Source: Thermoanaerobaculia bacterium
GTDB lineage: Bacteria > Acidobacteriota > Thermoanaerobaculia > Multivoradales > JAGPDF01
Direction of reading: 5' to 3'
Assembly (NCBI GenBank): GCA_018057705.1
Contig: JAGPDF010000005.1
Span: 1-50,194 of the forward strand
DNA length: 50,194 nucleotides
This document shows, piece after piece, positions 6,593-48,063 of this stretch. Under the pieces are notes generated by a model, which was given only the letters and a program-made list of their open reading frames with translations, did no database searches and was not told the DNA's origin. Position numbers and translations under genes: made by a program. Numbering within the stretch: the stretch's first letter is position 1; each line of letters begins with the position of its first letter.

Positions 6593-7084
6593 TCAGCGGT
6601 AGTTGGTGAAGGAGAGCGGAACGTCCACGTCCAGACTCTTCAGGGCCGCGATCGCAGTCTGAAGATCGTCCCTGCTCTTACCCGATACGCGCACGGTGTC
6701 TCCCTGGATGGCGGCCTGCACCTTGAGCTTCAGCCGCTTGATCTCTGCGACCAGCTTCTTCGCGGTCTCCTGCGGAATACCCTGCTGAAAGGTGAGCTTC
6801 TGGCGCACGCGCCCGCCGGACGCCGGCTCGACATCGCCGCGGCGCATCGACTTGAGGTGCACGCCCCGCCGGACGAGTTTGGTCTCGAGCACCTCGCGCG
6901 CCTGCTCCAGGGTGAACTCGTCCGCGGTTTCGAGCACCAGGGACTCGGACTCGATCAAGAGCTTCGCGCCGACCCGTTTCAGGTCGTAACGGGTCGCGAT
7001 CTCCTTCTCGGCCTGGATGGCGGCGTTGCGCATCTCCTGAAAGTCGACTTCCGAGACGATGTCGAAGGATGGGTTATCGGCCAT
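6593..7084 (-). CDS. YajQ family nucleotide-binding protein
   Basis: A 163-residue protein matching the YajQ/DUF520 family end to end: PSFDIVSEVDFQEMRNA at the start, IATRYDLKRVGAKL, an internal FTLEQAREVLETKLVRRGV segment, KLTFQQGIPQETAKKLVAEIK and the closing VPLSFTNYR. Members are small cytoplasmic proteins with two ferredoxin-like folds; some are reported to bind cyclic di-GMP or nucleotides. The ATG at 7084 is where the family begins. No Shine-Dalgarno sequence is evident. A TAGAAT -10 candidate lies at 7110-7115 on this strand. Probably co-transcribed with ispB. Confidence 0.93.
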   Translation of the reverse strand: MADNPSFDIVSEVDFQEMRNAAIQAEKEIATRYDLKRVGAKLLIESESLVLETADEFTLEQAREVLETKLVRRGVHLKSMRRGDVEPASGGRVRQKLTFQQGIPQETAKKLVAEIKRLKLKVQAAIQGDTVRVSGKSRDDLQTAIAALKSLDVDVPLSFTNYR

Positions 7085-7225
7085 GGGCGGGGTCGGGGAC
7101 GAAAGGAGAATTCTACTATGCCTCGGAGGTTCCACGGCGTTTCGACTGCACCTTCACTGAGGCGGGCGGGCTCCGCCGGGCCGCGGTCGCCGCGCCCGGG
7201 CGGACTCGCGCCCGAATCCGCCGCG

Positions 7226-7254
7226 TTGACGCGCCCGGTTCCCGGGCCTATTCT
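7226..7254 (+). promoter_or_regulatory. Promoter of the PKD-domain secreted protein gene
   Basis: TTGACG (7226-7231), a spacer of exactly 17 bases, then TATTCT (7249-7254). A transcript starting near 7261 would carry the GGAGG (7284-7288) that lies 6 bases before the ATG at 7295. The region 7085-7225 otherwise holds only the opposite-strand leader. Confidence 0.6.
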
Positions 7255-7294
7255 TGCCCTCGGCCGCCCATCCCTGCCGGTCTGGAGGTTCGAG

Positions 7295-8740
7295 ATGCCC
7301 TGGATTGCGCCTTTCGCTCGTCGTCTGCTGCGGTTCGCGGCGTGCGCCGCAGCACTCTTCTCAGCCCCCGCAGGCGCGACCGTCCTGCTTCTCGGTCAGG
7401 GCGCGAACGTGAACCTCGACGCGGCCGGTCCCAACGATCTCCAGGGTCTGCTGTGCAATTGTCCCGCAGCGACGAGTGTGCGCCACCTCAATGGCTCGCA
7501 GCGCTGGTCATCGAACAACTCCAACTGGAACACGATCGGCGTCTGCGACGCCGGCGGCTCGGCGCAGACCGGCGACTTCGTTCCCGGAGACGACGAGCTC
7601 TACATCGTGCGGACCGGATCGGGTACCTTCTTCAAGTTCCGGCATCCCAACGGCAGCACCAACAATGGCACAGGCATCTCGATCGAGTACGTTTCGCTCG
7701 GTTCGACGCCCTGCACTCCACCAGCTGCGAGCTTCACCTGGGTCTCGCACGACCTGATCACCCAGTTCACCAACACCTCGACCAACGCGACGACCTACGC
7801 CTGGGCCTTCGGGGATGGTGGCAACAGCAGCCAGCAGAGTCCGACCCACGCCTATGCGACCTCGAACACATGGAACGCCTGTCTCACGGCGACCGGCACC
7901 GGGGGCACGAGCGCCCCCACTTGCCACGGCGTCACCGTGAGCCAGGTTCCTTCGACGCAGGTGCCGGTGAACGGATTCCTGGACTTCGACCCCAATGCCT
8001 CGAACGACATCCAGGTGCAGGCGACCGGCGCCTGCGGTGCGACACCGAACAAGATCCACATGCTCAACGCGGCACGCTGGGGTGTGGTCACCGCGCCCTA
8101 CGACGCGGTGAATCTCGCCATGGCTCAGGCGGCGACGCTCTCGACCAGCGACGTCTGTCACGCGCCGCAGGAGTTCGGCGAGACGTTCATCGTCAAGACA
8201 GCGATCGCGACCTGGGTCAAGGCGTGGACGCCGCAGAACGACGGCGGTGGAATCCGGTTCCAGTACCAGGTGCTCCAGGCGGGCTCGAGCACGATTTTCA
8301 GCGATGGCTTCGCGAGCGGCAATACCGGCAGTTGGAGCGTCACGGCCGGCGTCGGCGAACCCGCACCGACACGGCTCCGCGTCGAGGTCGCGGTCGAATC
8401 GGAGGGTCGGGACCCGAGGCCGGAAGCCGCCCCTGCGACGCTGGCTCGGCTCCGGGACGAGACGGGACACGAGTATGCGCGGCTCGAGCTGCTGCGGGAT
8501 GCGGCAGGGCTCGCGGTGCGCCTCGTCGCGGATACGCTGCGGGCGTCCGGGCAGGCGACACCATGGCTGGCGCTCGCCGAAAGCACGGCGACCGTGCGCC
8601 TCATCTGGCGCGCGAATCCGGACGAGCCCGGTGGCAGCGCGTTTCTGGCGCTCGAAGCGGTCGACGGTGGTGCGGTCGGGCTGGCCGTGCCTGCCGCCGA
8701 GAGACTCTGGATCGAAGGCCCGGTGGTCGAAGTCGACTAG
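7295..8740 (+). CDS. Secreted PKD-domain protein with DGF/W-S C-terminal module
   Basis: A 481-residue exported protein. Residues 1-28 form a signal peptide (RRLLRFAACAAALFSAPAGA). A PKD-like beta-sandwich follows at about 146-195: the core TTYAWAFGDGGNSSQQSPTH is the classic WDFGDG-type motif. A further region around 200-330 contains paired cysteines. At about 331 the motif IFSDGFASGNTGSWS occurs, also seen in modified form in the secreted proteins at 27288-28376 and 43838-44677. The last 130 residues form a beta-rich domain (RLRVEVAVES, YARLELLRDAAGLAVRL). No catalytic site is evident; an adhesive or extracellular binding role is only a guess. Start supported by GGAGG. Confidence 0.8.
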   Translation: MPWIAPFARRLLRFAACAAALFSAPAGATVLLLGQGANVNLDAAGPNDLQGLLCNCPAATSVRHLNGSQRWSSNNSNWNTIGVCDAGGSAQTGDFVPGDDELYIVRTGSGTFFKFRHPNGSTNNGTGISIEYVSLGSTPCTPPAASFTWVSHDLITQFTNTSTNATTYAWAFGDGGNSSQQSPTHAYATSNTWNACLTATGTGGTSAPTCHGVTVSQVPSTQVPVNGFLDFDPNASNDIQVQATGACGATPNKIHMLNAARWGVVTAPYDAVNLAMAQAATLSTSDVCHAPQEFGETFIVKTAIATWVKAWTPQNDGGGIRFQYQVLQAGSSTIFSDGFASGNTGSWSVTAGVGEPAPTRLRVEVAVESEGRDPRPEAAPATLARLRDETGHEYARLELLRDAAGLAVRLVADTLRASGQATPWLALAESTATVRLIWRANPDEPGGSAFLALEAVDGGAVGLAVPAAERLWIEGPVVEVD

Positions 8741-27287: not shown

Positions 27288-28376
27288 CTAAGGATCGACG
27301 ACCGACCAGTGCGCGGTCGAGCCGCCGTCGAAGCCGTCGCTCCACAGGTGCGGCGTGGCTCCCGAGTCGGCCGAGAGCTCGAGGCCCGAGACGTCCACGA
27401 CTTCGAAGGCGCTGCCCGGGATGTCGTTGATCACGCTGAGCTCGTCGTCGTCCCAGCGCGGATCGGGGACGCCGTTCAAATACCAGTCAGTGCCGTTGTC
27501 GGCGACCATCATGCCGTACTTCTTGAGCGCCTGGAGGATGGTCCGCACCCGCGGAGTGAAGCCCGCGAGGTCGTAGCCCGCCTTCAGGCGCAGGCGCAAG
27601 CCCATCGGCGGGGCGTTGACGTCGGCGGTCGCTCCGGCCTGGTGACGGGCCGGCCAGACGTAGGTCGTTCGCGAAATGTCGACCGTGAAGCGCAGGGCAT
27701 GGCGGATCTCGCCGGTTTCGACCTCGTCGTAGCGCACCAGGCCTGGGAAGACCGGCAGTCCGGCAGCGTCGCCCGAGGTCCAGCCGTCCGGCCGCAGGGC
27801 GTTCGAAGCGAGGTCGAAGACTGCGCCCGACAGGCCGCACCAGCCGGGCGTCGCACCCGGGACCGAACAGGTGAATTCGCCATTCCAGTCCCCCTCCTTC
27901 CACGAGTGGTAGAGCTCGTAGAGGAGACAGGCCCCCTGGCGGACGACGAGGATGTGGCGGTCGCCCTGGTTCAGCGGATCGTCGCCGCCTTCGATCGGCG
28001 GGTTCGGGGGGATCGGGTACGGCCCGGCGTCGCTTTCCTCCGGCCAGCCGTCGAGCGAGGCGAAGTCGATCGGCAGCAGCGCCTGCCCGTTCGGAACCAC
28101 GACGTAGGGGATGCCGATCGGCGCCCCTTCCCAGACCGTGCCGAAGTCGGGGTGCATCGTGTCGGCCGCCCCGATGTGATTCACGATCGCGCTCGAGTTC
28201 GCCGCCACCGGCAGGCTCGCGACCGGCGTATTCCAGATGTTCGAGACCGGCAGGACCTGGCAGCCGCCGACGGTCTGCTGCGCCGCGAGCGGGGCGGCTA
28301 AGAGGAGGCCGAACGAGACAAGACCGGTAAAGGGAAAACGGTCTCGATTGCGCCGCGCGTGATGGATCCTGACCAT
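27288..28376 (-). CDS. Secreted protein with C-terminal DGF/W-S motif
   Basis: A 362-residue exported protein: signal peptide (FTGLVSFGLLLAAPLAAQ), then a single long domain beginning CQVLPVSNIWNTPVASLPV. Distinct segments are HPDFGTVWEGAPIGIPYVVV, RHILVVRQGACLLYELYHSW, WPARHQAGATADVNAPPMGL and LKKYGMMVADNGTDWYLNGV. I recall this WNTPV...HPDFG layout from hypothetical secreted proteins of actinobacteria and acidobacteria but know no function. It ends LWSDGFDGGSTAHWSVVDP, the same short module as in the proteins at 7295-8740 and 43838-44677. The ATG lies 8 bases after minus-strand TACGTT (28385-28390), a leaderless arrangement. The stop nearly meets murB, convergently. Confidence 0.75.
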   Translation of the reverse strand: MVRIHHARRNRDRFPFTGLVSFGLLLAAPLAAQQTVGGCQVLPVSNIWNTPVASLPVAANSSAIVNHIGAADTMHPDFGTVWEGAPIGIPYVVVPNGQALLPIDFASLDGWPEESDAGPYPIPPNPPIEGGDDPLNQGDRHILVVRQGACLLYELYHSWKEGDWNGEFTCSVPGATPGWCGLSGAVFDLASNALRPDGWTSGDAAGLPVFPGLVRYDEVETGEIRHALRFTVDISRTTYVWPARHQAGATADVNAPPMGLRLRLKAGYDLAGFTPRVRTILQALKKYGMMVADNGTDWYLNGVPDPRWDDDELSVINDIPGSAFEVVDVSGLELSADSGATPHLWSDGFDGGSTAHWSVVDP

Positions 28377-28432
28377 GGAGCAGGAACGTAGCAGCGGACG
28401 TGAGAGCGAGCTGTGAACTGATCTGCACCCGT

Positions 28433-30379
28433 TCAAAACAGGTAGTCGTACTCGCCGGCGGCGCGCAGGCTCTCGCCGACGCGCCGGGCGCCGGCTTCTG
28501 TCCAGTGATTGGAGTCCCAGTAGAGGAGCTCGCCGCCTTCGAGGAAGAGCGGGCAGTACCAGCCCTTCCGCAGGGGCTCGCAGGTGAGCGGACGCAGGTC
28601 GATGAAGTCCACCCTCTGGTGCTCGGCGATCTCGGAGAGCCGGGCGATCTCCTGCTTCATCCCGAACTTGTCCTTGGCGGCGTCGAAGCGTTCGTTGGCC
28701 TCCTCCAAGGTCGCGGCCTGGGTGAGCAGGGCGGAGAGCTCGGTGAAGGCGAAGCGCCCGCCGACGATCACGATCCGGGCGCGGTAGCGCGACTTCAGGT
28801 AGTCGATGGTCGCCGGCAGCCCGGCCATTCCATAGTCGATCCAGGAGCTTGCGATGACGATGAGATCGGCAGCTTCCAGCAAGGGATTGTCCCGCAGCAC
28901 TTCGGACTGACGCGCGCACTCCTCGGCGTATTCGCGGGAGCGGATCGGCGTGCCCTCGCCGTAAGGGCGCGGGCCGAGGATCGGCTGGCAGTCCCAGAAA
29001 ATGTGGAGGAAGCGGAAGTTCACCTGCGACCTGGCACCCAGCAACGCTGTCAGCAGGTCGGCGCCGTGGCTGTCGCCGACGATGACCGCGTTGCGCTGTC
29101 CCAGAGCCGGGAAGGGTACGCGGTCCTGGGCGTTGGCGGCGTCGAAGTGGTGGTCCTTCATTCCCGCGAGGCCGGCGGCTGCGGCGCGCAGGTCAGACGG
29201 TACTCGGCCCGGCCAGCCGCGGTCCGCGATGGCCGAGACCGAAGGCAGGATGAGGGCGCAGGCGAGGCCGGCGCAAGCCAGGCCAAAGGCCGGATCGGAG
29301 AGCCGCCGTCGTCCCGATCGGCGGCGGCGGAAGGGCTGCTCGACCAGGAAGTACATCGCCGTCGCGAGCCCGATGGCGGCGGCGATGAGGGTCGCCTTCT
29401 CGAGCGACGTCGAGTCGCTGGCGCGGCCGTATCGCACCAGCACGAAGAGCGGCCAGTGCACGAGATAGAGCGAATAGGAAATCAGGCCGATACCGACCGC
29501 CAGGCGATTGGCCAACAGCGCTCCGGCGACCCGCCCGCGGCCGCCGACGATGACCAGGGCGGCTCCGCCGCACGGCACCATGGCCGCGAGGCCGGGGAAA
29601 CGGTGCCCTGCGCCGTAGGCGTGCGTCGCGTAGGCGATCAGGGCGAGGCCGAGCAGCGTGAGCAGCTCGCGGCGCCAGGACCGGATCGTGGTCGTGCTCT
29701 CGAGCCACAGGCAGAGCCCGCCGAGCGCCAGCTCGCACATGCGAAAGGGCGTCAAGAAGAAGGCGGCGTCGGGAGCCCTGCCGGCGGCGATCTCCGCGGC
29801 GACCAGGCTGGCGAGACCGACGGCAACGACGAGGGCGAGGACCCCGCGGCGGCGGCGAAAGCGAAAGGCGAGAAAGACCGAGACCGGCCACACGAGGTAG
29901 AACTGCTCCTCGACGCCGAGCGACCAGGTGTGGAGCAGCGGCTTCATCTCCGAACCGATATCGAAGTAGCCGGAGAGCTGCCAGAACAGCACGTTCGAGA
30001 TCGAGAAAAGCGTATGCACCAGCGACAGACTGAGCTCTTCGAGGTGCAGCGGCGAGAGCACGAAAACGCCGGCGACGAAGGTCGCGGCCAGCGTCGCGAA
30101 CATCGCCGGAAAGAGCCGGCGCGCGCGCCGGCCGTAGAAGCGAGCGAAGGTGAAGCGGCCGGCGTCGAGCTCGCCGAGAATCAGCCGGGTGATGAGGTAG
30201 CCGCTGATGACGAAGAAAATGTCGACGCCGACGAAGCCGCCGCGGAAGCCGGGGACGCCGGCGTGAAAGAGGAGGACGACCAGGACGGCGACAGCGCGCA
30301 GGCCGTCCACCTCGGGCCGGTAGGCTTCGCCCGCACCCTCTGCCGGGCTCCTGTCAGGCGAAGCGGGGAAGAGTCCCAT
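28433..30379 (-). CDS. Membrane O-acyltransferase (AT3 domain) with C-terminal SGNH domain
   Basis: A 648-residue protein of the OafA/YrhL type that O-acetylates surface glycans. The N-terminal membrane domain opens YRPEVDGLRAVAVLVVLLFH and carries GGFVGVDIFFVISGYLITRLI, FYGRRARRLFPAM and HTWSLGVEEQFYLVWP, the standard AT3 signature order, over about ten membrane helices to residue ~375. The C-terminal periplasmic SGNH hydrolase-like domain has the serine block VIVGDSHGADLL and the Asp-x-x-His block DSNHWTEAG. The ATG at 30379 follows TATCAT (30390-30395) by 10 bases. It is divergent from the GT-C-like gene and is a paralogue of the protein at 32112-34136. Confidence 0.92.
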   Translation of the reverse strand: MGLFPASPDRSPAEGAGEAYRPEVDGLRAVAVLVVLLFHAGVPGFRGGFVGVDIFFVISGYLITRLILGELDAGRFTFARFYGRRARRLFPAMFATLAATFVAGVFVLSPLHLEELSLSLVHTLFSISNVLFWQLSGYFDIGSEMKPLLHTWSLGVEEQFYLVWPVSVFLAFRFRRRRGVLALVVAVGLASLVAAEIAAGRAPDAAFFLTPFRMCELALGGLCLWLESTTTIRSWRRELLTLLGLALIAYATHAYGAGHRFPGLAAMVPCGGAALVIVGGRGRVAGALLANRLAVGIGLISYSLYLVHWPLFVLVRYGRASDSTSLEKATLIAAAIGLATAMYFLVEQPFRRRRSGRRRLSDPAFGLACAGLACALILPSVSAIADRGWPGRVPSDLRAAAAGLAGMKDHHFDAANAQDRVPFPALGQRNAVIVGDSHGADLLTALLGARSQVNFRFLHIFWDCQPILGPRPYGEGTPIRSREYAEECARQSEVLRDNPLLEAADLIVIASSWIDYGMAGLPATIDYLKSRYRARIVIVGGRFAFTELSALLTQAATLEEANERFDAAKDKFGMKQEIARLSEIAEHQRVDFIDLRPLTCEPLRKGWYCPLFLEGGELLYWDSNHWTEAGARRVGESLRAAGEYDYLF

Positions 30380-30470
30380 GGCCGGCGGGATGATATCCGG
30401 CCGGCCCGCCTGTGAAAGGATTTGGCTCTTCCTCCGGCGGCACGAAAGCGACGACCTCCTGCGCGCATCC

Positions 30471-32072
30471 ATGAACTCTCCCCGTTCCGGTCCCGTCGCC
30501 AGGATTGCGCTGCTGCTCGGGCTTTCGTTTGCGGCGTTCTATGCGGGAACGAGCCGCGGCGTCTTCGTCTTCGGCGACGACATCCTGATGTACCAGGTGA
30601 CGGCGGCGATCTGGGAGAGGGGAGAGGTCGCGGTCGCTTCCGTGGCACCGAGGAAGGATGTCGCCCACGCCTCCCGGGGTGTCGGGAGCCGGCGTTTCGC
30701 GAAGTACGGGCTCGCTCCCTCGCTCGTCGCGCTGCCGTTCTATGGCGCGAGCCACCGCCTCTTCGATCGCCTGGAGCTTCCCGAAACGGCGGACACCTTC
30801 GGCAATCTGCGCACGGGTCCGACGATCTTCGGCACCGGCCTCGCGAACGCCGTCACCGGCGGCGCCACCGTCGCCGTCACCTTCCTGCTCGCGGTCGAGC
30901 TCGGCTTTCCGCTCCTCGTCGCTCTGGCCACAGCCATCTGCCTGGGCGCGACGACGTTGCTGGCGCACTACGCCAGCACGTTCCTGTCCGAACCGCTGTC
31001 GGCCCTGTGCCTGGCGGTCGTGCTGCTCGGACTCCTCAAGGCGAAAGGCAAAGGCAAAGGATCGGTGAAGGAGGTAGCTGCCGGGCGCTGGTGGCTGGCG
31101 GCCTCCGGCTTTGCAGCCGGCCTGATGGTGGCGACGAAGGTGGCGCACATCGTCGTCGTGCTGCCCTTCTTTTGTTGGGTGGCCGTCCTCGGCTGGCGCC
31201 GCTCCCGCCACCGCGGACTCGTCGTCCATACCCTTTACTGGAGCCTTTTCTTTTGCACCTGGCTGGGCGCGATCGCCGCGTACAACTGGAGCCGCTTCGG
31301 CAGCGTCTTCGAAACCGGCTACGGCAGGGAGGCGGGCAACTTCACGACGCCCCTCGCCCTGGGGCTCGCCGGGCTGCTGGCGTCACCGGCGAAGGGGGTC
31401 ATCTGGTACTGCCCGGTGCTCTTTCTTTCGCTTCTCGGCGCGCGGGCGTTCTGGCGGCGGGACCGCGCCTGCGCGCTGGCGATTCTCGCGGCGAGCGCGC
31501 TCTGGCTGGTGCTGATCTCGCGCTACTACCAGTGGTTCGGCGGCGGCAGCTGGGGGCCGCGCTTCCTGGTGCCTCTCCTGCCGCTCTGGATCCTGCCCGC
31601 AGCTGAGACTCTCAACCGTTGGCGGCGCGGCAGAGGCTGGAGTGCCACCATCGTCCTGCTGGTTGCCGCCAGCCTCGTCGTCTCGATGGCTCCCTTGCTG
31701 GTGCCGTTCAGTGACCTCGAGGCGCCGCTCACGTGGTCGAGGACCCACTTCGCGCGGGCCGGCTGGCGGCTCCAGGACTCACCCCTGCTGCAGGCCCTCG
31801 AGTTGGTGCCGCGGGCCGCCGCGACGACGACTGCAAAACTCCTGGGGAGCGGTGTGCTCGGGGAGGCCGGGCGGCCCCGGGAGGGGCCGCGATTCCCCGA
31901 CTTCGCTTTCGAGCACTACGGCTCGCACGCCCTGCTCGAGTGGACGCGCGGCTCCTTCCTGCTCGCAACGCTGGCGCTGGCGCTCGCGATCGGGCTGGCG
32001 ATACGCGCGTCATCGTCGAAGGCAGCGGCAGGAACGGCGGAGGCGCGGCGTACGCGATCCGGCGCCGGTTGA
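30471..32072 (+). CDS. Polytopic membrane protein, probable GT-C fold glycosyltransferase
   Basis: A 533-residue protein with about 11 predicted membrane helices. The first periplasmic loop contains FVFGDDILMYQVTAAIWERG; an acidic pair at this position after the first helix is typical of GT-C glycosyltransferases using polyprenyl-phosphate sugars. Later landmarks are TFLSEPLSALCLAVVLLGLL, AGLMVATKVAHIVVVLPFF, YNWSRFGSVFETGY and YYQWFGGGSWGPRFLVPLLP, like the ArnT/PMT-related DUF2029-type proteins. No sugar donor or acceptor can be named. Located between two O-acyltransferase genes, so likely acts on the same surface glycan. A hexamer AAAGGC repeats near 31043-31060 in a Lys/Gly linker. Start codon without clear ribosome site. 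Confidence 0.75.
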   Translation: MNSPRSGPVARIALLLGLSFAAFYAGTSRGVFVFGDDILMYQVTAAIWERGEVAVASVAPRKDVAHASRGVGSRRFAKYGLAPSLVALPFYGASHRLFDRLELPETADTFGNLRTGPTIFGTGLANAVTGGATVAVTFLLAVELGFPLLVALATAICLGATTLLAHYASTFLSEPLSALCLAVVLLGLLKAKGKGKGSVKEVAAGRWWLAASGFAAGLMVATKVAHIVVVLPFFCWVAVLGWRRSRHRGLVVHTLYWSLFFCTWLGAIAAYNWSRFGSVFETGYGREAGNFTTPLALGLAGLLASPAKGVIWYCPVLFLSLLGARAFWRRDRACALAILAASALWLVLISRYYQWFGGGSWGPRFLVPLLPLWILPAAETLNRWRRGRGWSATIVLLVAASLVVSMAPLLVPFSDLEAPLTWSRTHFARAGWRLQDSPLLQALELVPRAAATTTAKLLGSGVLGEAGRPREGPRFPDFAFEHYGSHALLEWTRGSFLLATLALALAIGLAIRASSSKAAAGTAEARRTRSGAG

Positions 32073-32111: not shown

Positions 32112-34136
32112 TTGAGCGACAAGAGGGCCGCCGGCCCAAGAGTGTCCGATCGAGAGGCGTCGGTAGCGCCTGCGCGCCTTGGGAGCGAGCTCTCCGGAGC
32201 ACGGTCGGAGCCCCGCTACCTGCCCGACATCGACGGCCTGCGCGCCATCGCGGTTCTGGCGGTCCTCTTCTTCCATCTCGGATTTGCGGGTTTCACCGGT
32301 GGATACGTCGGGGTCGACATCTTCTTCGTCGTCAGCGGCTTTCTCATCACGCGGTTGATCCGCGACCAGGTTGCCGACGGGACGTTCAGCTTTTCCGGGT
32401 TCTATGCCCGCCGCGCCCGCCGGCTGTTTCCGGCGCTCTTTCTGACGCTGGTCGTCTCGTTCGCCGCCGCTGGCATGCTGTTGTCGCCGGCGCATCTCGA
32501 GCAGTTCGGAGGATCGCTGCTCCACGTCATCCTGTCGGTCTCGAACGTCTACTTCTGGACCGAGAGCGGCTACTTCGACACGGCGGCGCGATTGAAACCC
32601 CTTCTGCACACCTGGTCGCTCTCCGTCGAGGAGCAGTTCTATCTCGTCTGGCCGCTGACGCTCGTGCTGCTGCTCAAGAGGAGCCCGCGCTGGCTCCCGC
32701 CGGCGCTCATCGCGGCGGCGGGGGCTCTCAGCCTGTTCTTCGGTTCGCGCTGGCTCCTGGCGGATCCGTCCGGTGCCTTCTATTTCGCGCCCTTCCGTGT
32801 CGTCGAGTTCGCCTTCGGGGCGATCCTCGTCTGGCTGGTCGCCCACAAGCCGAAGCACCCCGTAGTGCAGGAGGCCCTGGTCGTCGGCGGTCTGGGGCTC
32901 ATTGCCTACGGGGTCGTGACGTTCACTCCCGAGACGTCGTACCCGACGCTCGCCGCGCTTGCGCCCTGCCTCGGCGCGGCGCTCGTCATCCAGGCCGGTT
33001 CCGCCCGCTACAGCGGCCGCCTCCTGCGCAATCCGGTAGCTGTCGGCATCGGGCTGATCAGTTACTCCCTCTATCTGATTCACTGGCCCATCATCGTCTT
33101 CTACGGCTACTACAAGTCCGAGCTGACCGACTTCGAGCGTTTCGCCATCGTCGGCGCCTCGCTCGTCGCGGCGGCAGGAATGTACCGGTTCGTCGAGCAG
33201 CCGTTCCGGCGCGGACTCCGCAGCGTCACGCCAGCCGCGTTTGGATTCGTTTGCGCCATGCTTGCCTTGATCCTCTCCCTGCCTGCCGCCAACGCCTGGG
33301 CGAAGGGCGGCTGGCCGTGGCGATTCGGCGCCGCCCTCGCGGCGGATTACGACCTCGATCTGCTGCGCATGAGCTCGCTTCGCTTCACGACCGAGAACGT
33401 CGGCGGCCTGAGCTTCGACTCCCAGCGCAGGAAGGTGCTGGTCGTCGGCGACAGCCATGCGGGCGATATCTCGAACGCTCTCGTCATGACGCTCGATCCC
33501 GCGGCCTACGAGGTGAAGCTACAGACCTTCGACGATGTCTGCTTTCTGTTCATCGCGACCGGTGAAGCTCCACCGGACATGGAAGTGAACGCCTTCTACA
33601 CCGCCCGCTGCAAGGATGAAGTGGCGTCCTACCGCGCTTCCCTCAAGGTGGCGAGCGCCGATGTCGTCGTCTTCTCCGTCAGCTGGACCCAGAAGACGGC
33701 GGAGGGAGCGCGCGATGTGATCGAGCTGACGCGGCAACTCTCGCGTGAGTCCCGTCTGGCCATGAAGGGACTGGATGGGCCGCGGGAAAACGATCTGCGT
33801 GTCGTGCTGATGGGGCCGGCGCCGCTGTTCCTCAACCTCCCTGCGAAGGTGCTCAGGCTGATAGGCAAAGGATCTGCCGTCGAGAAGATCAATCTCCGCG
33901 CCAACGCCTGGCGCGCCAAGGAGGGGCGCGAAGTCGACGCGGCGCTGGCTACCACCGCCGCCGCTGCCGGCGCCCGTTTCGTGAGCAAAGGGGATGTCGT
34001 TTGTTCGGAGTCGACCTGCACCGTGCTTTCCGAAAGTGGGAAGCTGATGCTGTTCGACCCTTCGCACTGGACGCTCGACGGCGCCCGCCTCTTCGGCGAG
34101 CGCATTCGCGAGGCCTACCCGGACCTCCTCGACTGA
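32112..34136 (+). CDS. Membrane O-acyltransferase (AT3 domain) with C-terminal SGNH domain, second copy
   Basis: A 674-residue paralogue of the gene at 28433-30379 with the same architecture: YLPDIDGLRAIAVLAVLFFH, GGYVGVDIFFVVSGFLITRL, FYARRARRLFPALF and HTWSLSVEEQFYLVWP in the membrane domain; VVGDSHAGDISNAL and FDPSHWTLDGARLF in the SGNH domain. The first 35 residues are a hydrophilic extension. The TTG start at 32112 is supported by GGAG (32101-32104) 7 bases upstream; an out-of-frame ATG at 32107 makes only a two-codon reading. It lies 39 bases after the GT-C-like gene and is probably co-transcribed with it. It ends 7 bases from the convergent metalloprotease gene. Confidence 0.92.
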   Translation: MSDKRAAGPRVSDREASVAPARLGSELSGARSEPRYLPDIDGLRAIAVLAVLFFHLGFAGFTGGYVGVDIFFVVSGFLITRLIRDQVADGTFSFSGFYARRARRLFPALFLTLVVSFAAAGMLLSPAHLEQFGGSLLHVILSVSNVYFWTESGYFDTAARLKPLLHTWSLSVEEQFYLVWPLTLVLLLKRSPRWLPPALIAAAGALSLFFGSRWLLADPSGAFYFAPFRVVEFAFGAILVWLVAHKPKHPVVQEALVVGGLGLIAYGVVTFTPETSYPTLAALAPCLGAALVIQAGSARYSGRLLRNPVAVGIGLISYSLYLIHWPIIVFYGYYKSELTDFERFAIVGASLVAAAGMYRFVEQPFRRGLRSVTPAAFGFVCAMLALILSLPAANAWAKGGWPWRFGAALAADYDLDLLRMSSLRFTTENVGGLSFDSQRRKVLVVGDSHAGDISNALVMTLDPAAYEVKLQTFDDVCFLFIATGEAPPDMEVNAFYTARCKDEVASYRASLKVASADVVVFSVSWTQKTAEGARDVIELTRQLSRESRLAMKGLDGPRENDLRVVLMGPAPLFLNLPAKVLRLIGKGSAVEKINLRANAWRAKEGREVDAALATTAAAAGARFVSKGDVVCSESTCTVLSESGKLMLFDPSHWTLDGARLFGERIREAYPDLLD

Positions 34137-34143
34137 AGGGGTT

Positions 34144-36141
34144 TCAGAAGGCGTTGTTGTCGAGCCCGCCGCAGTAGTTCCCCGCCGCGTTGGTGTAGGT
34201 CTTCACCCGTCCGGTCGTGGTCTCGGTGATGCGCAAGGTGTAGGCGAGGTTCGAGAGCGTGCCGTAGAGCACCAGGACGCGGTCCCCGAAGTCCAGCGTT
34301 TTCACCAGCACCTCGAGGTTCGCCGGGTCGGTGAACGAGAAGGCAGCGGTCAGGTCGGAGAGCTTCTTGCCGGTGCCGCGGCCGCTCGTGGCGTCGAACT
34401 GGTTCCGCCAGTCGAGCTCGAGCCGGAATCTGTTGTTCACCAGACAGACGGCGTTGGCGCTGCTCTGGCACGAGGCCAGTTGCAGGAGATCGGGCTCGCC
34501 GCCCGCGGTGTCCGTCTCGAAGACGAGGCTGGACGTCGCGAGGTTGTTGTCGAGGCCGCCGCAGTCGCCAGCGGTGTTCTGGTAGGTCTTGGTCACGCCG
34601 GTGCGGGTGTCGCGCACGCTGATCGTGAAACGGAGGTTCGTCAGCTGGCCGTAGAAGAAGAGCACCCGGTCGCCGAAGTCGAGCACCTTGACGATGAGCT
34701 CGATGTTAGTGGGATCGGTGAAGTAGAGGAAGCCCGCGACGTCGGTGTTCGGGATCGCACCGGCCGCGCCGCTCGCGCCGTCGAACTGGTTGCTCCAGGT
34801 GGCCGAGACCTGGAATCTGCCGCCTACGAGGCAGAGGGTTCCTGCCGGGCAGCCGCCGGTGCCGCCACCGCCGCCGCCACCTCCGCCGGTGAAGGTCCGG
34901 TCGTACAGGGTGCGCAGCGCGGCGACGTCGTCGCTCGCCAGGCGGGCGCCGCGGCCGTCGTTGTGGATGCGGAAATACATCAGGGCGTCGCGCAGCGTCT
35001 GGTTGGTCTCGCCGGCGTTCTCGCTCGAATGGCCGATCCCGAGGGTGTGTCCGAGCTCGTGTCCGATGAGCTCCTCGGCGGTCTTCTGCGGGTTGCTGGA
35101 GCGCTCGAAGACGCAGGCGATGCCGTCATTGAGCACGATGTCGGCGCCCTGGATGCGGATGAAGGTCTCGCCATTGAAGCGGCCGGTGGTATCGGGGTCG
35201 AACCAGGGCCCGCCGATCGCCAGAGTGCCGCCGGTCGAGCAGTTGAAGTCGCCCTCGACGTCGCCGTTGGGGTCGTCGAACAGCAGTACGTTCTGGCTGT
35301 CGAAGTTGGAGAACCCGGCGGTCAGGCCGGAGGTGCCGGCGAGCGTGAGACGGATCGGTGTGTTGGGCTGGGAATTCCAGCCCGCCATGGCGTTGCGGAA
35401 GATGTCCGAGGGGTTGCCGCTGAATCCGGGGAACGGATCGGGATCGATCCGCCAGCTGACCTGGCCGCCGTTGTCGAACTCGAACCAGCGTGAATTGCGC
35501 CCGTTCTCCCCCAGCAGGGTGAACATCGGCAGCAGGGAGTTCTGACTGGCTGCAGGAAGGACCAGATAGTAGTCCGGGAACTGCGGGCGCGAGGTCGCCT
35601 GGTCGGCGATCCAGTCGGCGAAGCGATCGAAGTCGCGCAGCCTTCGGTTCTCGTTCTCTCTCGTCGCCGCGTCGTCGAGGACATCCACTTCGGAGAGGTC
35701 GCGGTAGGCGACCGCGTGGCCGGCGAGAAGCGCTTCGCGGAAGGCGCCGAGCATCAGGTGGAGGATGCGGTAGGTGCCGTCTGCGTGACGACCGAGAAAG
35801 AGCAGGGCGCGCTCACCTTCGGCGAACGTCGGCGCCCCCCAGATCTTGAGCTCCATGCCGTTCGCGGCGCGTCCGCCGGGAACCCGAACGAGGAGGCTGC
35901 TCTCGCGTACCGAGCCCTTGAGCACGCGCTCGACGTTCATCAGGTAGTCGGTCACCGGCCGGTCGATCTCGGCGGCGGGGAGCGTGCCGACGACCCGGGC
36001 GACGACGATCAGCCGGGCCTGTTCGATCAGCCGGATGTCGTTGACCAGCTTGACGCTGGTGGCACTCGCAGGGGCGAGTGTGCCCAGGGCGAGAGCCAGG
36101 AATACGAGACCCGGCAGGAACATTCGATTTCGGAAGGGCAT
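34144..36141 (-). CDS. Secreted metzincin-like metalloprotease with duplicated C-terminal domain
   Basis: A 665-residue exported protein; signal peptide PGLVFLALALGTLAPASA. The protease domain (about 190-420) has the zinc signature HELGHTLGIGHSSE (HExxHxxGxxH). A run of nine glycines (FTGGGGGGGGGTGG) links it to two tandem domains of ~110 residues. Each starts CLV..RF.V...W.NQFD, passes FTDP.N.E..VK.LDFGDRVL, and ends TG..KTY.N.AG..CGGLDNN. A related domain ends the protein at 46414-48063. Substrate unknown; the tandem domains may mediate surface retention or binding. ATG at 36141 is used because GTGGAG lies 9 bases before it; an ATG at 36183 would add 14 residues ahead of the signal peptide. 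Confidence 0.85.
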   Translation of the reverse strand: MPFRNRMFLPGLVFLALALGTLAPASATSVKLVNDIRLIEQARLIVVARVVGTLPAAEIDRPVTDYLMNVERVLKGSVRESSLLVRVPGGRAANGMELKIWGAPTFAEGERALLFLGRHADGTYRILHLMLGAFREALLAGHAVAYRDLSEVDVLDDAATRENENRRLRDFDRFADWIADQATSRPQFPDYYLVLPAASQNSLLPMFTLLGENGRNSRWFEFDNGGQVSWRIDPDPFPGFSGNPSDIFRNAMAGWNSQPNTPIRLTLAGTSGLTAGFSNFDSQNVLLFDDPNGDVEGDFNCSTGGTLAIGGPWFDPDTTGRFNGETFIRIQGADIVLNDGIACVFERSSNPQKTAEELIGHELGHTLGIGHSSENAGETNQTLRDALMYFRIHNDGRGARLASDDVAALRTLYDRTFTGGGGGGGGGTGGCPAGTLCLVGGRFQVSATWSNQFDGASGAAGAIPNTDVAGFLYFTDPTNIELIVKVLDFGDRVLFFYGQLTNLRFTISVRDTRTGVTKTYQNTAGDCGGLDNNLATSSLVFETDTAGGEPDLLQLASCQSSANAVCLVNNRFRLELDWRNQFDATSGRGTGKKLSDLTAAFSFTDPANLEVLVKTLDFGDRVLVLYGTLSNLAYTLRITETTTGRVKTYTNAAGNYCGGLDNNAF

Positions 36142-36260
36142 GTGCGGTGGCTCCACCTGCAAGGTCAGGACCTGCAAGATCAAGACCGGGCCGACAAAGT
36201 AAGCCCTGCGCGGATTCTTGTCAATGAGATTCGACGGCCAGCCGCGATAGTCTTCGCCCC

Positions 36261-43837: not shown

Positions 43838-44677
43838 TCAGGGGACCGCTGCCGACCATTCGATGGTGGAAGCGACCTCGAAACCGTCCCGGAAGATGTT
43901 GATCGTGCGGACGCCCAGGGCGTCGAGGTCGCCGGCGGCGAAGGCGGCGGAGAGGCTCGCCGAGGCGTCGTAGGCGAGGCTCCAGGTCGAGCCGTCGAAG
44001 GCGACCACATCCTCGTCGTCGAAGTCGACGGTCGCGATCCTGCCGCTGGTGTCGAAGGAGAAGTAGCGCGTGCCGTTCACCGGATCGCGGTCGAAGCCGT
44101 CGACGTCGAGGCCCTCCGGGATGCCGAGCGCCGAACCGTCGAGAAAGAGCGACCAGGCCGAACCGTTCCAGCCGGCGAGGTCCTCGTCGTCCACCGTGAG
44201 CCCGCCCGGCAGCGCGGTCGGCACGTCAAAGGAGAGCAGGGTCTGGGTCACTCCGGCGCTGCGGACGCGACCGAAGGCGTCGATCGCTGTGCCGGCCGGA
44301 ATTCCGGCGGCCGAGCCGTCGAGGAAGAGTGTGTAGGCCGCGCCGTTCCAGGCGAGGAGATCTTCGGGCCCGGCCGTCACTCCGCCGCCGAGATCGACGA
44401 AAGTATCGAGTGCAAAGAGCCTCTTGCCGTCGTCGAGCAACTGGTAGGCGGTGACGTCGGCGTTCGCCGGCAGGACGCCGAGGTCGAGCGTCGAAACCGT
44501 GGACGGAAGTGTGACGCGCCGCGCCGCCTCGTCGTCGATCGTCGCCGCTCCCGCCGTCCAGGTGATGTCGTTCGAGGCATCGACGGAGAGAACCTGGGCG
44601 TGGCTCGACTGGGCCAGGACGAGGAGCAGTATTCCCGAGGCGCGGGGGCTGCGGTTTTCGCGGATCCGAACTCGCAT
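43838..44677 (-). CDS. Secreted repeat protein with C-terminal DGFE/W-S motif
   Basis: A 279-residue exported protein (signal segment ASGILLLVLAQSSHA). After residue 30 it consists of about three related units of ~65 residues with the pattern DDEDL..WNG..WSLFLDGSA.GIP.G, for example LTVDDEDLAGWNGSAWSLFL, suggesting a small beta-propeller or blade array. It ends INIFRDGFEVASTIEWSAAVP, the third instance of the short C-terminal module seen at 7295-8740 and 27288-28376. Function unknown. GAGGAG precedes the ATG. It lies 11 bases downstream of the beta-helix protein gene and is probably co-transcribed with it. Confidence 0.8.
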   Translation of the reverse strand: MRVRIRENRSPRASGILLLVLAQSSHAQVLSVDASNDITWTAGAATIDDEAARRVTLPSTVSTLDLGVLPANADVTAYQLLDDGKRLFALDTFVDLGGGVTAGPEDLLAWNGAAYTLFLDGSAAGIPAGTAIDAFGRVRSAGVTQTLLSFDVPTALPGGLTVDDEDLAGWNGSAWSLFLDGSALGIPEGLDVDGFDRDPVNGTRYFSFDTSGRIATVDFDDEDVVAFDGSTWSLAYDASASLSAAFAAGDLDALGVRTINIFRDGFEVASTIEWSAAVP

Positions 44678-44688
44678 GAGCGCGCTCC

Positions 44689-45504
44689 TCACGGGCAGAC
44701 GACGTTGCCGCACATGTTGGACGCAGGCGGCACCTGGAGAATCGTGCCCGCCCCGAAGCAGCCTGCTCCCGCGCAGCCGTTGAACTTGTTGCCCTCGAGG
44801 GCGCAAACGGAACATGTGAAATCCGCGGCTGCATTCACGGCGATGGTCGAGTGGCCGAGACGCGCTCCGAGCAGGTTGACCTCGACACCGACGTTGTTCT
44901 GCGTCGTGACGTTCTCGGCGGTGCCGCCGTTGAGCTGAATTCCAGGGCCGAGGTTCTGGATGGCCAGCGAGTCCGCTATCGCGCCATTGCTTACCGAGAT
45001 CCCTCCCACGGTGTTGACTGCGGCCACGCAGCGAGTGACGTGCCCGAAGCTGACTTTGATTCCCCATCCTTTGTTGCCGGTGGCACGAACGGAGTCGACC
45101 GAGCCGCTGCCCTGGATGCCGTCGGATCCCATGCCGAGGACGGAGCCGTTGCGCACGTCGGCTTCGCCGGAGACACCGGCTCCGGTGCCCGCACTGTCAG
45201 GTCCGCGAATCGCAAAGCCGTTGAGATCGATGCTCGTGCCCGAGACTCCGAGGGTGATTTCGATGGCCGTCGTGTTCGCGGACTGCGGCAGTCCCAGGAA
45301 CGTGACATCGAGATCGCTGGTCAGGACGAAGCTGCCGGGCGTGTTGATCGACACCGGGAAACCGGCCAGGTCGCCGGCAGTGACGCCTCCCGCCAGAGCC
45401 TTCGCCTGGTTGATCTCGATTCGCCCGTCCACGGCAGTGGCCGCCTGGGATACGAGAAGCAACTGCAATCCTGCAAGGACGGACAGCCACGAGCGGGTGC
45501 GCAT
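44689..45504 (-). CDS. Secreted right-handed beta-helix protein
   Basis: A 271-residue exported protein (signal peptide LSVLAGLQLLLVSQAATA). The body has short repeating strands typical of parallel beta-helices: TSDLDVTFLG, TAIEITLGVSGTSIDLNGFAIRG (cited as SGTSIDLNGFAIRGPD), DVRNGSVLGMGSDGIQGSGS, GISVSNGAIADSLAIQNLG and GTAENVTTQNNVGVEVNLLG. Six cysteines near the end (CSVCALEG...CAGAGC...MCGNVVCP) suggest disulfides capping the helix. This kind occurs in many copies in Acidobacteriota genomes from memory; function is unknown and no polysaccharide-lyase catalytic residues are evident. ATG supported by GGAGG 6 bases upstream. Confidence 0.82.
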   Translation of the reverse strand: MRTRSWLSVLAGLQLLLVSQAATAVDGRIEINQAKALAGGVTAGDLAGFPVSINTPGSFVLTSDLDVTFLGLPQSANTTAIEITLGVSGTSIDLNGFAIRGPDSAGTGAGVSGEADVRNGSVLGMGSDGIQGSGSVDSVRATGNKGWGIKVSFGHVTRCVAAVNTVGGISVSNGAIADSLAIQNLGPGIQLNGGTAENVTTQNNVGVEVNLLGARLGHSTIAVNAAADFTCSVCALEGNKFNGCAGAGCFGAGTILQVPPASNMCGNVVCP

Positions 45505-45583
45505 CTCAACCTCCAAAGGGTGACTCGATGTGGGGCGAAGCGTACTCTCATCGCTCGAAAAATCAATGGGCGGACATATCTCG

Positions 45584-45589
45584 TACAAT
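45584..45589 (+). promoter_or_regulatory. -10 element directly before a leaderless start
   Basis: TACAAT ends 6 bases before the ATG at 45596, so transcription would start at or next to the start codon. No ribosome site precedes the ATG. Representative of the pattern described in the findings. Confidence 0.5.
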
Positions 45590-45595
45590 CCACCT

Positions 45596-46231
45596 ATGGC
45601 TTCTCCCATCGCGCCGCGTCCGCATCCGCAGAAACAGCGGGATCAGGAGGAGCGGGAGGCGACGGCGCACTTCTACCGCGAGTGGCTGCGGAAGCCCATG
45701 TCGGTCGCCGCGGTCAGCCCGAGCAGCAAGCGGCTGGCGGAGGCCGTGGCGACGGCAGTCGGAGACGGGCAGTCGGTCGTGGAGCTCGGCGGCGGGACGG
45801 GCGCGCTCACGCACGCTCTCGTCGCGCGGGGTATTCCCAGGCTGGTGGTGGTCGAAGCGGTACCGGCCTTCTGCGAGCTCTTGCGCCGGCGTTTTTCCGG
45901 CGTCGAGGTGATCGAGGGCGACGCCACGCACGCGGCCGCTCTCCTCGCCGGCTCTCGCGTTCCACCTGGCACCGCCGACGTCGTGGTCTCGGGCCTGGGC
46001 ATGCTCACCCGGCCGCGCGAGGAGCAGCAGCTCTTGCTCGAGGCGATGCTCGCGCTGCTCAGGCCTGGGGGCCACATCGTGCAGTTCACTTACTCATTGT
46101 TCTTTCCGGCGGCGCGCGGCCTGCTGGCGGAGATGGGCCTCGAATCCCGCCGCGAGAGCATGACCTGGATCAACCTGCCGCCGGCCTCTGTCTTCATCGT
46201 GCGCCGGGCCGCGGGCGAAGCCGTCGCCTGA
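45596..46231 (+). CDS. SAM-dependent methyltransferase, phospholipid N-methyltransferase-like
   Basis: A 211-residue Rossmann-fold methyltransferase. After a basic N-terminus it has FYREWLRKPMSVAAVSPSSK, a feature of PmtA-type phospholipid N-methyltransferases and related rRNA-dimethylase-like enzymes, then the SAM site SVVELGGGTGALTHALV, VVVEAVPAFCELLRRRF, VIEGDATHAA, and VVVSGLGMLTRPREEQQLLL in place of the usual NPPY/NLP motif. It ends SRRESMTWINLPPASVFIVRR, as in PmtA relatives (W-N-PPA-V). Substrate is likely phosphatidylethanolamine but that is inference. ATG at 45596 chosen for family fit and the TACAAT 6 bases upstream; an ATG at 45566 is in frame. Confidence 0.85.
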   Translation: MASPIAPRPHPQKQRDQEEREATAHFYREWLRKPMSVAAVSPSSKRLAEAVATAVGDGQSVVELGGGTGALTHALVARGIPRLVVVEAVPAFCELLRRRFSGVEVIEGDATHAAALLAGSRVPPGTADVVVSGLGMLTRPREEQQLLLEAMLALLRPGGHIVQFTYSLFFPAARGLLAEMGLESRRESMTWINLPPASVFIVRRAAGEAVA

Positions 46232-46413: not shown

Positions 46414-48063
46414 ATGCCCGACGGCTCATTCTCTCCGACGAACCGGCGCCCAGGTTCAAGGCGTTCCTGCGCGCTTTTCGTTCTGGCGATCGCGGTGGTT
46501 TCGGCGCCGCTCGCGGCCACCGATGTGCATCTGGTCAGCGGCACGGCACTCGAGGGCAGCGTCGACCTCGCACTGTGCCCGGACGGCTCGTTCCTCGTGA
46601 GCTGGGTCAACTACGAACTCGGTTTCCACGAGCCCAGATTCCAGCACTTCGATGCCGAGGGCGTTGCACTCTCGCCCGCCGTGCCGTTCGGCGACATCAC
46701 CACACCGGGCACGGAGACTCGACTCGGATGCGACGCCAACAACGAGGCTCTCGCTCTGTGGACGAGGTTCGGCAACGAGTACGCAGGTGTCACTTCCGCG
46801 ATGTACGTCACGGCCTTCTCCAGCAGTGGGTCTCGTCTCTGGCCGACGATCGACCTGGGGAATGCGGTGCAGCCGGGCGCCGCGTTGTTCCTCGGCGTGG
46901 ACATGACCGCCTCGCCCGCCGGAGGTTGGATCGTTCACTGGAGCGCTCGTCTGCCCGGCTCGGAGGTCCAGAGGGAGTTCTCGCAGCGGATCCTCACCGC
47001 CTCCGGCCCGGTGGGCGAGCCTTTCGAATGGGTTGACCCCCCGCACGCGGCAGCGCTGGCCTCTGCGCCGAACAGCGCGATCCAGGTATTCCAGAGACTC
47101 GATCCGCAACAGAGCCGGTTGTTCGCGCAGCGGCTGCTCCCCGACGGTTCTCCGGCGGCTCCGGCGCGCGAGGTCTACGCGCTGAATCGGCAGGATGGCT
47201 TGGTCTTCTATGACGATGAACCTGCTGGCTTCGCTGGGGATCGGTACTTTCATCTGGTCTCCGTGGGCACCTTGGGAGGGGGAGGAATTTACTTTCCCGG
47301 CTTCGTCACCCAGCTGCAGGGGCTAACCACGGAGGGCGATCAGCTGGCCGTGCCGCCATTTCCAATTCGAGAAGTCGATACCGGAGACATCAGAGGCAGT
47401 GTCGCGGTCGATGCCCAGGGACGGGCGATGGTCGCATGGGGAGAGGCCGCTGTCCTCCTTGGACCGCTCGTAGGTCGCATCCAGGCGTTCGGCGCCAACG
47501 GCACACCGCTCTCCGAAGTCGTCGCCTTGAACGATCTGCCGACGACGCTGATGGTGGTGCCGCTTTCCGCGATCTCTCCCTCTGGCCGATGGATCGTGGT
47601 GTGGGGGGAGAGCGGAGAGTTCGGCGCTTCTCCCGGGCTTCGCGCCCGATTCGGAGCGTTCCCGGCCGGGTGCACGCCGACGATGGAAGTGCTCTGCCTC
47701 GCCGGAAATCGATTTCGCGTCACGACGACCTACCACGATCATCTCGGGCGCGACGGGGTCGGCCAGGCGGTGGCATTGACGCCGGAAAGCGGGACGTTCT
47801 GGTTCTTCACCGCCGCCAACGTCGAACTGATCCTCAAGGTCATCGACGCCTGCTCACATCCGGATTTTCAGGACTTCTGGGTCTATGCTTCCGGGCTGAC
47901 CGACGTCGCGGTGACCCTCACCGTGGTCGATACCTGGACCGGAGAAACCTGGGAACGGGAGACTTCGCTCGGCGAAGCGTTCCCTCCGGTGCTCGACTCG
48001 CAGGCTTTCCACACCTGCGGGACCACCTCTCCGATCGTTTCGCTCGCCGCAGGCGCGCCCTAG
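46414..48063 (+). CDS. Large secreted protein with C-terminal Cys/Phe-rich domain
   Basis: A 549-residue exported protein. The signal peptide is late (CALFVLAIAVVSAPLAATD, about 20-38). The main part (40-425) has repeated beta units with WV/W-S-GR patterns, e.g. PDGSFLVSWVNYELGFHEPR, MTASPAGGWIVHWSARLPGS and SPSGRWIVVWGESGEFG, probably a beta-propeller. The C-terminal ~110 residues (CLAGNRFRVTTTYHDHLGRD, TFWFFTAANVELILKVIDAC, LTVVDTWTGETWERETSLGE, ending DSQAFHTC) form the same domain family as the tandem domains of the protease at 34144-36141. Function unknown. AAGGGA lies 6 bases before the ATG. The 182-base upstream gap holds nothing else recognisable. Confidence 0.8.
   Translation: MPDGSFSPTNRRPGSRRSCALFVLAIAVVSAPLAATDVHLVSGTALEGSVDLALCPDGSFLVSWVNYELGFHEPRFQHFDAEGVALSPAVPFGDITTPGTETRLGCDANNEALALWTRFGNEYAGVTSAMYVTAFSSSGSRLWPTIDLGNAVQPGAALFLGVDMTASPAGGWIVHWSARLPGSEVQREFSQRILTASGPVGEPFEWVDPPHAAALASAPNSAIQVFQRLDPQQSRLFAQRLLPDGSPAAPAREVYALNRQDGLVFYDDEPAGFAGDRYFHLVSVGTLGGGGIYFPGFVTQLQGLTTEGDQLAVPPFPIREVDTGDIRGSVAVDAQGRAMVAWGEAAVLLGPLVGRIQAFGANGTPLSEVVALNDLPTTLMVVPLSAISPSGRWIVVWGESGEFGASPGLRARFGAFPAGCTPTMEVLCLAGNRFRVTTTYHDHLGRDGVGQAVALTPESGTFWFFTAANVELILKVIDACSHPDFQDFWVYASGLTDVAVTLTVVDTWTGETWERETSLGEAFPPVLDSQAFHTCGTTSPIVSLAAGAP

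Follow-up and report, generated by a model that had tools for sequence, protein, structure and literature searches.

A C-terminal domain family shared by secreted proteins of Thermoanaerobaculia, possibly a sorting or surface-retention module

The locus considered here raises the question of why a secreted metalloprotease and a second, unrelated exported protein should end in the same domain. Both are encoded in a stretch of 50,194 nucleotides from a Thermoanaerobaculia bacterium (contig JAGPDF010000005.1), which is called the window below. The protease gene (34147-36183, minus strand) is closed by a stop codon at 34144-34146 and encodes a secreted protein of 679 aa that starts with the signal peptide MPFRNRMFLPGLVFLALALGTLAPASA. 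Its product matches the Pfam family PF00413 (Peptidase_M10/Matrixin) with 28.9 bits against a cut-off of 24 (E 1.2e-6), and the HExxHxxGxxH motif, read directly in the sequence, is HELGHTLGIGH; by this profile match above the curated cut-off and the motif, the enzyme is classed as a matrixin, a member of the metzincins. The C-terminal domain pair of the protein is no part of the matrixin family. Nine glycines (residues 433-441; 34861-34887, minus strand) precede copy 1 of the domain (34540-34851, minus strand), and copy 2 (34147-34476, minus strand) runs to the stop codon with the ending YCGGLDNNAF. Two genes that appear by eye to encode paralogous OafA-type acyltransferases with a C-terminal SGNH-like part are found at 28433-30472 (minus strand) and 32112-34136 (plus strand), and a membrane protein gene (30378-32072) sits between them.

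The third copy in the window (47665-48018, plus strand) lies at the C-terminal end of a secreted protein of 549 aa (46414-48063, plus strand), whose N-terminal part is repetitive, looks propeller-like by eye and has no Pfam match above cut-off. Profile and pairwise matches bear out the initial annotation, which had placed two copies on the metzincin behind a nine-glycine linker and one on this protein. The two protease copies share 50% identity (E 1e-36) and both are recovered at E 1e-30 by a profile of 32 copies from the same genome, while the third copy is 35% identical to copy 1 (E 6e-13) and 28% identical to copy 2 (E 1e-10). The third copy had been described as the diverged one, but the relation is the reverse. 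It retains all four conserved cysteines and stands near the family consensus, whereas the protease copies are diverged, lacking the third and fourth cysteines (the first pair is present in copy 1) and carrying FTDP in place of the WFF of most copies. Two paralogues of the 549-aa protein elsewhere in the genome (L031 and L032) have domain copies that are 84% and 69% identical to its own. Protease orthologues in seven relatives, from its genus and family, retain the metzincin motif and the tandem pair, and most also have a glycine-rich linker, the linker at this place consisting of 8-10 glycines or being glycine-poor or PPPPP.

The full domain comprises about 118 residues, compared with about 110 as first proposed, and its consensus reads C-x7-LCL..GRF.....W......G..G.G.AV.LT.D(T/S)GYFWFF...NVE.VVKVLDGC....WVFAGGLTNV...LTV.DT.TG....Y.NP.GT.F.PIQDT.AF.TCP-stop. 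Identity among copies is often only 35-45%; the residues that never vary across 101 domain sequences are F, E and K in the central strands, R in GRF, and the first and the second cysteine. When two alignments are taken together (133 rows), the third and fourth cysteines occur or are missing jointly in 132 rows, and the first and second do so in 131; the 101-row alignment was selected for full-length sequences, a choice that favours retention of the first pair. This joint retention and loss of cysteines, two by two, implies two disulfides; in its simplest reading, they would join the first to the second and the third to the last cysteine. An AlphaFold model predicts an all-beta domain of ten strands (pLDDT 93.1, pTM 0.86) without any helix of four or more residues, and in the model of the protease tandem pair (240 residues, pTM 0.81) the same strand layout occurs twice with a disordered linker between.

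The initial annotation knew of no function for the domain, and no profile match to a characterised family emerged from Pfam, NCBIfam, PHROGs or the PDB. None of the 25 Pfam families listed for the 101 domain copies at E<=1 is a meaningful match, the window proteins have no NCBIfam or PHROGs match over the domain, and a PDB sequence search returned chance-level matches only. In structure comparison, neither Foldseek, against the PDB (no match at E<=0.001) and viral models, nor VIA-align gave a clear match, the best Z scores being 5.5 and 5.7. A relationship to levivirus coat proteins, which weakly resemble the domain model (Z 5.5, 72 residues, rmsd 3.8), was rejected, as this value is below the trustworthy level (Z <8 means no relation) and may reflect chance. 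On sequence and model, the domain appears to be an uncatalogued family with a candidate fold of its own and no clear solved relative in the PDB, although the lack of a structural match is no proof that the fold is new. Neither the libraries nor the open literature searched contained an account of the domain or of the short tag discussed below.

A profile built from the three window copies, and the mapping of its partners and taxonomic range, proved the observation to be larger than at first stated. The profile recovers 32 copies on 25 proteins in the genome carrying the window (5.08 Mb, 96% complete), seven of the proteins having two copies, and an improved profile recovers the same 32. Among 40 relatives, this genome included, each genome has between 0 and 65 copies. 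Family f3, which belongs to the same order, is essentially without the domain, as five of its six genomes (G009, G017, G024, G030 and G038) have no copy and the sixth has one. Across the phylum, 34 of 297 genomes have a match in a scan that scored at most 15 candidates per genome and hence gives presence, not copy number; the matches fall in the listed members of the same order, in a few genomes elsewhere, and, within the class but beyond the order, in 6 of the 17 members listed. A pattern-limited scan of 85,000 species genomes, which is the sole basis for the range outside Acidobacteriota, confirmed 278 domain loci. The best 80 of these belong to Acidobacteriota, mostly Thermoanaerobaculia and Holophagales, except for two MAGs, one an unplaced 'bacterium isolate Gpa_8' and the other labelled Deltaproteobacteria. 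The domain was found in none of the plasmid and phage records searched. It is therefore a lineage-type domain, as had been proposed, with a patchy distribution. In a tree of 130 copies, built from few columns, the copies of the window's genome are scattered and at least six changes are forced. Several copies of one MAG labelled Deltaproteobacteria, P_S1_bin.14 (L115, L124, L125, L148 and L179), nest among Acidobacteriota copies, which would reflect either transfer or a misnamed Acidobacteriota bin.

The domain occupies a nearly constant position. It closes the protein, with the last copy no more than 17 residues from the end, in 24 of 25 carriers of the window's genome and in 85 of 91 others. 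The exceptions include L051, which has the domain near its N-terminus, and an orthologous group (L123, L132, L143, L170 and L175) with about 410 residues beyond the domain pair. Of the 85 terminal copies in other genomes, 61 have CP as the very last residues before the stop codon, whereas a proline follows the last cysteine in only 3 of 36 non-terminal copies (0 of 8 in the window's genome); by these raw counts, in which kinship is ignored, the free end itself seems to be constrained beyond the domain alone. About one third of carriers have tandem copies (7 of 25 in the window's genome and 30 of 91 elsewhere). Starts resembling signal peptides, as called by a simple rule, are found in 22 of 23 carriers of the window's genome and 75 of 83 others, against 219 of 1115 control ORFs. 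The partners are unrelated, as the initial annotation had it, and cover 13 Pfam families in the window's genome and 68 in other genomes; they include matrixin, M35 protease, trypsin, glucose/sorbosone dehydrogenase, LamG, Calx-beta, cupredoxin, DUF4397, propellers, fn3, PKD and others. To judge from their sequences, the signal peptide is what they have in common, and little else. Some small proteins consist of nothing but a signal peptide and the domain (L168:4917-5354, L178:4869-5354 and L183:4926-5357); they are encoded in a neighbourhood of conserved synteny where none of the adjoining genes is informative.

A second C-terminal element, unrelated to the domain, recurs in the same genome. 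This tag of 16 residues, DGF[ED]x6Wx4P-stop, is found in the window as DGFDGGSTAHWSVVDP before the stop codon (27288-27338, minus strand) on the protein encoded at 27291-28919, and as DGFEVASTIEWSAAVP before the stop codon (43838-43888, minus strand) on the protein encoded at 43841-45067. Its DNA pattern including the stop matches 74 times in this genome and the reversed control not once; in the 40 relatives the count ranges from 0 to 80, with the control at 0 throughout. Outside the order, a single match was obtained among 247 genomes of the phylum searched, and no family corresponding to the tag was found in Pfam or NCBIfam. Domain and tag replace each other between paralogues. The tagged 27291-28919 protein has a paralogue, L036, that ends in the domain (47% identity over 301 aa), and the same exchange is seen in glucose/sorbosone dehydrogenases (L197 and L209 with the tag, L047 with the domain), in Calx-beta proteins (L202 against L042) and in propeller-like proteins (L201 and L207 against L033). 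None of 30 tag loci examined carries the domain. Across 40 genomes the counts of domains and tags are uncorrelated (Spearman -0.04), with domain/tag numbers such as 0/80 (G009), 60/0 (G010), 65/74 (G011) and 0/0 (G030); genus g5 (family f3) has tags but no domain, and genus g6 shows the opposite pattern. Genomes that lack the tag are G010, G013, G018, G020, G025, G027, G030, G031 and G036. One protein of the window (6857-8740, plus strand) has a tag-like stretch, DGFASGNTGSWS, internally with about 130 more residues after it, so that the short tag may have arisen out of a longer domain, as its first strand. Another secreted protein (44692-45609, minus strand), with a weak match to right-handed beta-helix proteins (E 0.012), ends in NMCGNVVCP before the stop codon, possibly a third recurrent C-terminal ending.

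What, then, could be the role of the domain? The reading placed first here, to which we give about an even chance, is a lineage-specific, extracytoplasmic C-terminal module for sorting or surface retention that is used after Sec export. A carrier would leave through Sec by means of its N-terminal signal peptide, and once it is in the periplasm its C-terminal part would form a compact all-beta fold with the two disulfides proposed above, by which the C-terminus would be pinned onto the domain. The folded domain would then be recognised by a lineage-specific receptor or translocon, and the cargo moved across the outer membrane or held at the cell surface; the tag would apparently serve as another label on similar cargo. 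This reading is favoured by the extreme C-terminal position, the constrained last residue, Sec export, the diversity of cargo, the exchange with the tag and the presence or absence by lineage. It is weakened on several sides. First, no machinery has been identified: a search for the T9SS translocon (SprA/Sov) found it in 0 of 40 relatives, but the control genomes were silent too, so that this zero carries no information, and secretin-like GspD gives matches in all 40 relatives (one above cut-off), which do not discriminate. Second, a few copies are non-terminal (L051 and the orthologous group above). Third, about a third of carriers have two copies, which a simple address label would not need, and stand-alone proteins of signal peptide and domain exist. 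Fourth, with a disulfide fixing its final residues, the domain would be ill suited to removal by a tail protease.

The closest analogues are the C-terminal domains of T9SS, types A and B (PF18962/TIGR04183), which are folded, have about 70-100 residues, occur on diverse Sec-exported proteins in tens per genome and are restricted to Bacteroidota (PMC10202324). The present domain resembles them in its place at the extreme C-terminus of diverse Sec-exported proteins, in its tens of copies and in the existence of more than one alternative tail type, but differs in sequence and in its two putative disulfides. The 25 families listed at E<=1 for the 101 domain copies do not include PF18962, and at E<=10 neither Pfam nor NCBIfam yields a PF18962 or TIGR04183 match for the window proteins. 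Membership in T9SS by way of Por_Secre_tail matches in partner proteins was rejected, these being cross-matches inside CarboxypepD_reg (carboxypeptidase-regulatory) repeats. By this comparison, the domain most likely works like a T9SS C-terminal domain without being one. The MYXO-CTERM, PEP-CTERM and GlyGly-CTERM tags are short and tripartite, with a motif, a transmembrane helix and a basic tail (PMC11980579, PMC1569441, PMC3237569). Like the domain, they are restricted to lineages and mark dozens of exported paralogues that share the C-terminal end only and have tail-less homologues; unlike them, the domain is predicted to be folded and all-beta, lacks the transmembrane helix and the basic tail, and ends in ATCP or similar, and the 16-residue tag likewise has no hydrophobic stretch. 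The PPC domain (PF04151) is likewise a beta domain at the C-terminus of exported proteins, secreted proteases among them, but it is absent among the Pfam families listed for the 101 copies and stands beside the domain as a separate unit in five partners.

The main rival to sorting is a ligand-binding module, which, in the manner of a carbohydrate-binding module or the PPC domain, would hold exported proteins near their substrate by attaching to a mineral surface, to a glycan or to the matrix made by the cell itself, and would need no sorting machinery. C-terminal placement on proteases, lectin-like and Calx-beta proteins is indeed common for binding modules, tandem copies would increase avidity, and the invariant F, E and K together with the aromatic WFF stretch also speak for it. 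However, carbohydrate-active enzymes are few among 111 partner segments, N-terminal or internal copies are nearly absent, the last two residues are constrained in terminal copies only, and a tag of 16 residues takes the place of the domain in paralogues, so that binding is judged somewhat improbable. Second among the rivals, and unlikely, is an oligomerisation or stability cap, by which copies would pair, so that exported proteins are linked as dimers or as arrays on the surface. The two putative disulfides would fit such a cap, and the pTM of the tandem model, maintained over 240 residues despite the disordered linker, suggests that the two copies may pack on each other, which favours this reading a little. 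The weak resemblance to the dimer-forming levivirus coat proteins points the same way, although it may be chance and its Z score denotes no relation; against the cap, one-copy proteins are in the majority, and alternation with the short tag is left unexplained. Lineage paralogy without a common role, in which a stable fold was spread by recombination at gene ends and tolerated there, would agree with the high copy number within genomes, the loss in one family and the low identity between copies, but is very improbable, as the fixed cysteine pairs, the invariant F, E and K and the conserved final CP of terminal copies indicate selection and the tandem pair is kept in protease orthologues of several genera.

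C-terminal sorting and anchoring modules are known as a kind; the domain family is new, with a candidate fold and a lineage of its own. The carriers belong to a large lineage, mostly uncultured, of soil and sediment, in which one domain without Pfam counterpart fills up to 65 positions per genome alongside a second, shorter tag. More tentatively than the sorting reading itself, we suggest that Thermoanaerobaculia may have a so far undescribed system for sorting to, or anchoring in, the outer membrane, whose two interchangeable labels, the disulfide domain and the 16-residue tag, would be borne by about 100 proteins of the window's genome, as an independent counterpart of T9SS with its tails of types A and B. 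Even as a binding module, the domain would be in wide use and have a confidently modelled fold to which no solved structure is clearly related. If the domain and the tag are address labels, they would mark much of the secretome of this lineage, allow anonymous extracellular proteins to be recognised by sequence, and hint at a machinery for secretion or anchoring, which could be traced by matching presence and absence, as between genera g5 and g6.
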